A DNA stretch of 64,000 nt from Rhizoclosmatium globosum (lineage: Eukaryota > Chytridiomycota > Chytridiomycetes > Chytridiales > Chytriomycetaceae), in assembly GCA_002104985.1 (NCBI GenBank), contig MCGO01000042.1, positions 248,001 to 312,000 on the forward strand. Direction: 5' to 3'. Below the pieces are notes generated by a model. The model was not told the origin of the DNA and did not search any database. It was given only the letters and a program-made list of their open reading frames with translations. The translations under genes and the position numbers were made by a program. This document shows positions 8,236-11,144 of the stretch, piece by piece. Every line of letters begins with the position of its first letter. The stretch's first letter is position 1.

Positions 8236-11144
8236 ATGGAGATGGACGCCTTCCTCATTGGAGGTAAACAGAGCATTCTTCGCACAGTCATCCAGAGGTA
8301 CTAAAACAGGCAGTGTTCAGGCACTACCACCACCGGGGCAGTCAAAAAGGCAGGCGGCAGAAGCAAGAAAGCCACGACGCCCGCGGCCACAGCCAAAGCC
8401 AAGGCACCTTCGAAGCCGCGAAAAGACGCATCAAAAGCCTCGGTTTCAGTGGCGCCATCTGCCACTGCGACTGCGACTGCGACTGCAACTGCGGCACCTG
8501 CTGCGGAGCCCGTGTCTGCATCCACTTCGACAGCCACTTCAACAACAACTTCAAACACAACTCGAACTGCCGCACCAGCAAAGCGCGTCCGCATTCCCCC
8601 GCTCGAGTACTGGAACACAGACAAACAGCAAATCACTGTCCCGTCCGCCGCAGACGAACCACCCCAAAAGAAGACTAAGAAATCAGATGTTGCAATCGCT
8701 GACGATTCTTCTGCTGAATCAGGAAAGAAGAAACGGAAGGAGAGCCTCGCTGACAAAAGGGAGCACGTCCCCGTCAAATATTCGGACAACGAATCAACCC
8801 CAACTACATCTTCAAAACCTCGCGCAAAAAAGACCAGCCCACGTGTAACTGAACAGCCCCTCCCTCCTGGTTGGACAATGACATCGAAACAACGTGCTAC
8901 AGGTCATCTGGACTGTACATGGGTTGCTCCAAATGGGCTCAAATTTCGGAGTTACAAAAGTGTTCAGGATTACTGTGACAAGAATGGCATTCAACTCTCT
9001 TCCTCAAATATTATTAATAATCATGAGGTGGGTACATTCATGTTTGACCACTAGAGAGGCGTGAAAGCGCAAACTTGTGCGAGGCAAACATACTTTCGTA
9101 ATCGAGAGAAACGAACGCAGCGATCAATGAAACAAAGCGAGTGTTGCAGAACTGACTTTCGTCAAATGATTGCGGGTACAATCTTTCACATCAAAAAAAG
9201 AACTCGACCAAATGTCAAAGAAATAGGAGTTAAAATCTATCCTATTCCAGGTTCACCATGACCCAGAAATACAAGCTGTTCTGGAAGAATCCATCGCATC
9301 TTCTCATGCTGTTACAGTCTCGGCTGCCTCCAATCACGAAGACGATGAAGAGGACGAAGAAGTTCCACTAACAAAGCCTGTCAAACAAAAGCTTTCCCAA
9401 CGCGTAAGTGATCATTTAATTAGATCCACGAATTGTTAATTGGAACTCAGTCCGCTCAAATGATGGTAGAAATCATTGTCAAGGAACCAACAGCGTCTTC
9501 AGAGACAGCCACATCGAAACAGTCCGTCTCAGCTCTAGATAAAACAACAAAAAAGCAATCCAACGCAAAACAACAAAAGAAATCCTTGGCGCTGGAATTG
9601 AGTGACGACAATGACGAAACGAAGTCTTCTTATGACAGTTCCATTCCTTCCATAACGTCAGCTAAAGTCTCTTCCGCACCGTCAGCCACAACTGTCACTG
9701 GTGAAAAGAAGCAAATTGTCATCCCCCCACCAGTTCAAGTCAATATTCCTACTATTGAGCCGTACATTCCAACACATCAACCCAGCACCTTGCAAGAACT
9801 TCTTGATCGTGATAAACCTTCGGATCCAAAAGTGAGTTCCCCTGTTCATTTTAAAATTAACAATGTCGTGAACTTACGATATGGTATTTAGAACCTCCAA
9901 AGTGTAGTGGATAATTTAAACCGCCGCCTCGAAGAAATGCGGACGCTTCGGTACACGGCACCTGAAAGCCTTCATGCACAATATAAAGTGGCTGCAGAGG
10001 CGAGGTATGCATGTGAGTAGACCATTTCGTTCGAGGGACGTAAACTGAATATACAAAAACCAGCATACGAAGAGAAATTAAAGGAACTCAAGGCCGAACT
10101 TGATGAAACGCGTTGCGCGCATCAAAATGCACTTGATACTGTTGTCAAAATGCGTGGGGCACTTGAGGAGTCAAATTCTGTTGTAGCTGGACTTCGGGCA
10201 CAAGTGTCGGTAAAAGAAGGGAAAGAGGGAAAAGAGACGGTACAATTGCGAAAAGAAGTTGAAACGCTACGAATGGAGGTGGAAAAGGTCACCAAGGAGA
10301 GGGATATTCTTCGCAAAGAGAGCGAAGCACAGATGTGGGAAGTTGAGCATTTGGAAGAAGTTTGTGATGAGTTGGAAGCAGAGAAGGACGGAGTTCTGGA
10401 AGAGGTTGAGAAGTTGAGCAAGATGGATGAAGAAAGCGAGAGGGAGAAGAAGGCGTTGAGAGAGCAAGGTATGTTGATTGTTGTTATGTATTAGTACTAC
10501 TAACTGAGAAAATCATAGTGAACACTTTGAGTGCTAAATTGGAGAGCTTAGAGAAACTGAGTCTGGAAGCAAGTGAACGTCCCGCTCAACCAGACCGATA
10601 CGCACAGAGACTGGAACGGATGGTTCGTATGTATGAAGAACTTTCGCAGTTCAAGATTTTGAGTGTGGAAGAAGCGCGTGCAGAGATTGATTCAGACGAT
10701 GATGAAGATGAGGAGGATGAAGAGACGGAGGAGGAGGTTGTATCACAGGATGAGATTGATCGGGCAAGACGACGTAGTGTACGACGACAAAGTGGAGTTG
10801 GAAAGGGGTTGACCAAAGTCCGTATGCCGCGGTTGGAAGATGTATTGGAGCATCGCTGTGAAATGAAAGGAACTCGAGGAGGTGAGTGTGTGTTGTTGAG
10901 ATTCATTTGTAGTGACTCTTCACATGCAGAGATTCAATTCACATTGACCATGCCAAAAGTGCAGACGGAAACATCAAGTCCCAACATTCTGTATACTCTA
11001 CACGTTGCCAAGGATGATGAAGGTCGAGTGATGGAGGAGGATGACGAGGAGTTGCCAGAGTACTTGAGTGGAGAAATGACTTTTCCTCGAGAGCGATTAA
11101 TTGACTTTTTCCGCAAGACTGTGGGATGGTTGTTTTCAGCTTGA
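8236..11144 (+). CDS. Csm1/Pcs1-like protein with CENP-C-type motif and MBD-like domain
   Basis: Eight-exon model (8236-8263, 8321-9027, 9251-9403, 9451-9831, 9892-10012, 10064-10468, 10519-10881, 10930-11144), about 790 residues; every junction keeps frame. Residues about 10-95 are Ala/Thr/Lys-rich and disordered. Around 97-108 is KRVRIPPLEYW, closely resembling the CENP-C motif that clamps CENP-A nucleosomes. Around 188-230 a segment beginning LPPGWTM with KQRATG and FRSYKSVQDYC resembles the methyl-CpG-binding (MBD) fold. A long coiled coil follows (about 430-600), then an acidic loop, then a C-terminal globular domain (MYEELSQFKIL ... EIQFTLTMP ... LPEYLSGEMTFPRERL) like the Csm1/Pcs1 monopolin domain, which in yeasts binds kinetochore proteins. 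Expected site: nucleus, centromere. The 223-nt intron at 9028-9250 is the longest in the gene; if it is really intergenic, the N-terminal and C-terminal parts would be two genes. Confidence 0.75.

Follow-up and report, generated by a model that had tools for sequence, protein, structure and literature searches.

Can a kinetochore crosslinker reach centromeric chromatin by a route of its own? The question is raised by a single gene of the chytrid Rhizoclosmatium globosum, whose predicted product combines a Csm1-like C-terminus with a CENP-C-type motif and a methyl-CpG-binding domain (MBD). In the excerpt consulted of PMC6823300, Csm1 is described as an ancient kinetochore protein that is probably recruited by the N-terminus of Dsn1, and monopolin is thought to reach kinetochores through Dsn1. 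A first-pass annotation of this DNA had credited yeast Csm1 with contacts to both Dsn1 and Mif2/CENP-C; the former is borne out by the same excerpt (PMC6823300), whereas neither Mif2 nor CENP-C is named in that paper. In the open-licence literature we found no report of Csm1 with a CENP-C-type motif or with an MBD, and none that pairs Csm1 with the CENP-C motif or monopolin with methyl-CpG. The gene lies in a window of 64,000 nucleotides (the whole stretch analysed, G000:C357:248001-312000, in an assembly of 56.9 Mb and 420 contigs), where its features are as follows:

8236-11144, + strand: whole gene; eight exons, 790 residues, no internal stops, seven introns, all GT..AG
8236-8263, 8321-9027, 9251-9403, 9451-9831, 9892-10012, 10064-10468, 10519-10881 and 10930-11144, + strand: exons
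8581-8613 (residues 97-107), + strand: CENP-C-type motif KRVRIPPLEYW; invariant residues in 6/6 proteins, PDB profile, genome-wide pattern
8836-8988 (residues 182-232), + strand: methyl-CpG-binding domain; PF01429, MBD4 in PDB, fold of the model
9028-9250, + strand: intron 2; 223 nt, GT..AG, kept in the second allele, separating the MBD exon from that of the DNMT5-like acidic segment
9350-9379, + strand: EDEEVPLTKP segment behind the MBD, common to the DNMT5-like N-terminus
9892-10583 (about residues 424-620, crossing introns), + strand: coiled coil, from sequence, limits set by eye
10584-11141 (residues 621-790), + strand: Csm1 C-terminal head; Pfam match at 10845-11090, with the intron at 10882-10929 inside

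Every element that the first-pass annotation had placed in one spliced frame (KRVRIPPLEYW, LPPGW...FRSYKSVQDYC, coiled coil and Csm1 block) is present in the single frame of 790 residues. In this gene model the first acceptor (8320) and the fifth donor (10013) were picked among canonical sites to hold the frame open; the chosen start, MEMDAFLIGG, fits MDFDEMLLDG and MDDFDQLLVG of relatives when aligned, and the junction of exons 5 and 6 is free of gaps against them. The CENP-C-like motif and the MBD fall within one unspliced open frame (8305-9054), so that their linkage is independent of any splice guess. A second copy on contig C37, which we take to be the other allele, has exons 95.5-100% alike; a single insertion of 6 nt leaves the frame intact, and 7/7 introns have GT/AG. 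Over the whole gene, pN between the two is 0.0131 versus a pS of 0.0627. Introns 6 (10469-10518) and 7 (10882-10929) have diverged by 28% and 15% between alleles, and exons 6-8 by just 0.5-2.2%. Intron 7 is 48 nt long, in frame and free of stops, and its retention would therefore add 16 residues within the Csm1 head. The gene is flanked by a protein kinase frame upstream (PF00069, 7007-7474) and by an NST1 frame downstream (PF13945, 11843-12352).

What kind of protein is it? The Csm1 profile (PF12539) matches residues 708-773 (E=6.3e-6, 27.1 bits against a cut-off of 22.6), and when PDB was searched with a profile of the family heads, Csm1 took eight of the 12 rows, including the top seven (best E 3e-5); a search with the single head sequence returned no Csm1 among its rows. 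In a structure model of the relative from Obelidium (P0001), two long helices are predicted (H344-437 and H444-565), with head residues 641-739 at block pLDDT values of only 32-56. Judged by its sequence the protein, in which a long coiled coil precedes a C-terminal Csm1 head, is a chytrid Csm1/Pcs1 (monopolin) homologue, an identity that the first-pass annotation had proposed and that both the profile score and the solved Csm1 structures uphold. Genome-wide, the profile matched a single gene (the copy in the window) and overlooked even the second allele, so additional Csm1 copies may exist.

A search with residues 600-790 returned five proteins at E<=1 among 4141 candidates, 55-69% identical over that region, from Obelidium mucronatum, Siphonaria sp. 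JEL0065, Podochytrium sp. JEL0797 and Chytriomyces hyalinus (two proteins), all four species belonging to the Chytriomycetaceae (order Chytridiales). Three of these proteins are nearer to the R. globosum Csm1 than Chytriomyces is. Both Siphonaria proteins used here (Csm1 P0002 and DNMT5 P0006) come from an assembly flagged UNVERIFIED_CONTAM. All five relatives pass the Csm1 cut-off and carry motif and head within one predicted protein, whereas a Pfam search of the predicted proteins lists the MBD (PF01429) in none. The architecture that the first-pass annotation proposed to look for in other chytrids is thus shared as to motif and Csm1 head but not as to the MBD. Compared with Csm1/Pcs1 proteins, with which it shares the head and the coiled coil, the R. 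globosum protein of 790 residues differs in its long N-terminal tail, which bears both of these elements.

The motif is the part of this tail that the family has kept. In the six-protein alignment K97, R98, R100, P103 and W107 are invariant while the rest of the tail aligns poorly, and the pattern [KR]R.R..P..[YF]W occurs once per protein in all six (it is absent from the Siphonaria DNMT5). Per tail, 20,000 shuffles of the first 200 residues never gave R.R..P..[YF]W; as the six proteins are related, their hits are not six independent events. A PDB search with a profile of the six motif segments placed CENP-C at ranks 1, 2, 6 and 8 of eight, with weak E-values (0.024 and 0.25 at ranks 1 and 2, and up to 6.1 among the CENP-C rows), the remaining four rows being unrelated proteins. 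Across the 56.9 Mb genome, R.R..PLE[YF]W, a pattern composed after the match had been seen, has four sites, namely two CENP-C alleles and the two alleles of the Csm1 gene; the reversed pattern has none, and 0.32 would be expected by chance given the base composition of the window. The core is identical at 7/11 positions to the motif of the genome's own CENP-C (KRTRMAPLEFW), whereas the 12 residues behind it show 0/12 identities, and the RGEQIKY of CENP-C is missing in Csm1. The CENP-C-type motif that had been read in this tail is therefore upheld for its core, with all six proteins carrying it and CENP-C heading the profile ranking, and to go by its distribution it is older than the R. globosum genome. 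In structures of the CENP-C motif, the acidic patch receives an Arg that lies eight residues ahead of the Tyr/Phe, and the CENP-A tail is contacted by the Tyr-Trp pair; the matching positions in the R. globosum Csm1 are presumably R98, Y106 and W107.

The MBD, too, is upheld. PF01429 matches residues 182-232 (E=2.8e-7, 30.5 bits against a cut-off of 21), a range that includes LPPGW...FRSYKSVQDYC (residues 190-228); a PDB sequence search found MBD4 at E=3.1e-6, and in a fold search with a model of the domain, MBDs fill the first 15 of the 50 rows listed. Both the MBD and the Csm1 profile thus exceed their curated cut-offs, and the predicted fold agrees with the MBD call. R201, R219 and D207 align with MBD4 and the DNMT5-MBDs, and we take them to correspond to MeCP2 R111, R133 and D121, the arginines and the Asp presumably contacting DNA. 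The domain thus resembles the MBDs of MBD4 in sequence, and those of MBD4 and AtMBD5/6 in modelled fold, but its first loop is four residues shorter than in MBD4 (as it is in the DNMT5-MBDs), and Thr209 replaces the MBD4 Tyr that we assume to be the counterpart of MeCP2 Tyr123. At this position the genome's own DNMT5-MBD has Tyr and the Siphonaria DNMT5 has Leu. Between alleles the MBD shows pN 0.009 versus pS 0.067, from one and two changes only.

Where did the MBD come from? Its profile has three matches in the whole genome, the two Csm1 alleles and one further gene:

G000:C101:180500-190400: MBD-DNMT5-like gene, with its MBD at 2446-2580 of that locus

This gene is colinear with the Siphonaria DNMT5, which has MBD, PF00145 and PF00176 domains (58% identity in the MBD, 46-61% in the methylase part and 49% in the SNF2 part). 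The methylase profile (PF00145) did not list C101 in the genome search, nor in a joined query that lacks part of the gene. The stretches QSIKNFFTP and QSSLTSFFGGG of the C101 gene are, we assume, PIP-box-like. The Csm1 protein and the N-terminus of the DNMT5-like gene, the latter taken from manually joined frames, are identical at 43/104 positions including the DEEVPLxKP tail (BLASTP E=3e-22 for the pair), exon 3 of Csm1 extending the similarity begun in the MBD exon; in the Siphonaria DNMT5 an EEEEVPL lies about 100 residues past FRSY. On this alignment, the MBD and acidic tail of Csm1 and the DNMT5-like N-terminus share a common origin. Among the family proteins found so far, the MBD-plus-acidic-tail appears to be confined to R. 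globosum; Siphonaria has an MBD-DNMT5, yet its Csm1 has no listed MBD. Since the MBD and tail are shared and the Siphonaria Csm1 lacks a listed MBD, addition of a DNMT5 N-terminal segment to Csm1 is the simplest account. Over 47 residues the Csm1-MBD is identical to each DNMT5-MBD at 26 positions and these are identical to one another at 36, an equal distance that speaks against recent capture. In both genes an intron follows the MBD at a codon edge; counted from the F of FRSY, the distance is 28 residues in Csm1 and 29 in DNMT5. The position suggested a shared intron site, a possibility that we set aside as the DNMT5 frame past the intron joins poorly.

The same genome offers a setting for kinetochore and methylation roles. 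The CENP-C cupin (PF11699) was found on C33 and C365, in an ordinary CENP-C. There is a CENP-A candidate (G000:C57:352603-353156), H3-like and read in two neighbouring frames, with N-terminus MARSKAAAKTPVKKGK, tail LARRIRGQWGGLA and a Trp close to the C-terminus. Dsn1/Mis13 has a match (PF08202) on C389, where a clear acidic-FF-basic N-terminal motif is not evident in the frames read; elsewhere the N-terminal motif of Dsn1 is the docking site of Csm1, according to the excerpt of PMC6823300. Lrs4/Mde4 (PF10422) gave no match in the genome, the control search being equally silent. The C5-methylase profile PF00145 has 25 genome matches, many of them exon pieces. Open 462-residue frames of this family lie at C357:118882-120120, on the contig of the window, and at C72:45291-46529; they are perhaps alleles. 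In the window (1-64000) CpG observed/expected is 0.80 and TpG/CpA 1.20, a mild CpG loss that is compatible with some methylation. Of two fungal methylation reviews, one names MBD a single time, for an assay, and the other nowhere.

We rejected the protein as a CENP-C and as a KNL2. Since the cupin PF11699 is not listed in it at E<=10, it is not a CENP-C, a protein that is encoded elsewhere in the genome with its cupin. KNL2/M18BP1 is the other published family with a CENP-C-type motif (CENPC-k), with nearby DNA binding in plants (excerpts of PMC9210943 and PMC11879092), and it has been reported with CENPC-k from chytrid fungi too (excerpt of PMC9210943), but no SANTA domain (PF09133) is listed in the R. 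globosum Csm1 at E<=10; a genome search for SANTA gave 0 matches, with a control that was silent as well. Unlike DNMT5, with which it shares the MBD and the DEEVPL tail, the protein has no listed methylase or SNF2 domain, and we rejected it as a methyltransferase.

The plant work suggests how such parts may cooperate. According to the excerpt of PMC11879092, neither the CENPC nor the CENPC-k motif reaches centromeres by itself; targeting is seen with fragments that also include adjoining DNA-binding regions, and with a fusion of CENPC-k to a bacterial DNA-binding domain. Arabidopsis KNL2 requires the Arg and Trp of its motif (excerpt of PMC9210943). An MBD placed 75-80 residues behind the motif would fit, by analogy, this logic of a motif plus a DNA-binding part. 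We favour, with a probability of about 0.6, a reading in which the motif of the Csm1 crosslinker docks it on CENP-A nucleosomes and an acquired DNMT5-type MBD anchors it to DNA. The coiled coil would form a dimer; each motif would insert R98 into the H2A-H2B acidic patch and set Y106 and W107 against the CENP-A tail, contacts by which the crosslinker would grip CENP-A nucleosomes directly; and the Csm1 heads would hold outer-kinetochore partners, e.g. Dsn1. A step further, the MBD might bind nearby DNA, whether methylated, hemimethylated or plain, and so reinforce a motif that is weak alone. The CENP-A candidate and the Dsn1/Mis13 match of the genome speak for this reading. Weighing against it are the 0/12 identities behind the motif core, the four unrelated rows of the motif-profile search, Thr209, the missing Lrs4 match (with its silent control), the lack of an evident FF motif in the Dsn1 frames read and a head model of too low confidence to judge the fold. 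An ordinary CENP-C is retained, so the Csm1 motif is not required for want of another; with the DNMT5-like gene present as well, the earlier suggestion that three roles are merged in one protein goes too far, and roles appear to have been added rather than merged.

How much of this depends on methylation is another matter. One may consider a stronger version, in which the crosslinker is a centromere reader: its motif would recognize CENP-A nucleosomes, and its methyltransferase-derived MBD would sense whether the CpGs of that chromatin are methylated (or, once replicated, hemimethylated). Methylation would then assist in positioning or retaining the kinetochores of this fungus; we regard this version as doubtful. 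A tie between centromere position and methylation in chytrids at large, as the first-pass annotation had it, finds no support, given an MBD in none of the five relatives and Thr at the MBD4 Tyr position. The same protein could well have lost methyl selectivity, though we would not give this even odds: the MBD would then clamp DNA in general next to the nucleosome motif, with methylation irrelevant. Thr209 and the Leu in the Siphonaria DNMT5 point that way, as do the only mildly low CpG ratio of the window and the sufficiency in plants of a foreign DNA-binding domain beside the motif (excerpt of PMC11879092). Against it, R201, R219 and the Asp are retained, the genome's own DNMT5-MBD has the Tyr, the genome has its PF00145 matches, and allelic changes in the MBD, few as they are, give the lower pN.

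Other alternatives concern the motif, the history and the gene itself. That the motif serves as a peptide for binding the nucleosome acidic patch in general, or some other protein, and that Csm1 here acts mainly off the centromere, e.g. at rDNA, would suit a KRxRxxP core that is short and basic, the missing RGEQIKY, the unrelated half of the motif-profile rows and the published rDNA role of yeast Csm1 (excerpt of PMC6823300); the Tyr/Phe-Trp at equal spacing in 6/6 proteins and the first two ranks of CENP-C make it unlikely. Similarly improbable is an MBD that was ancestral to chytrid Csm1 and lost in five relatives, or that passed from Csm1 to DNMT5. The 26/47 and 36/47 identities favour it, since the split of the two MBD types may be older than the lineage, but no relative has the MBD, even though three are nearer than Chytriomyces, and MBD-DNMT5 occurs in two genomes (one, Siphonaria, with the contamination flag). 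Finally, a gene model that falsely joins motif, MBD and Csm1 head from separate genes might be suspected from the unusual length of intron 2 (the remaining six are 47-60 nt) and from the two selected splice sites. It is very improbable, as motif and MBD share an unspliced frame, motif and head share one predicted protein in 5/5 relatives, the similarity to DNMT5 that begins in the MBD exon carries on into exon 3, and both alleles concur.

With docking through the protein's own motif as the preferred reading, Csm1 would become the third protein family with a CENP-C-type motif, after CENP-C itself and KNL2, the known case of the motif outside CENP-C (excerpt of PMC9210943). That chytrid Csm1 has kept the motif points to a second way of reaching CENP-A chromatin, a direct one. 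The MBD of the R. globosum protein may be seen as a natural counterpart of the plant experiment that joined motif and DNA-binding part (excerpt of PMC11879092), and through it one could test directly whether centromeres can be marked with the help of DNA methylation.
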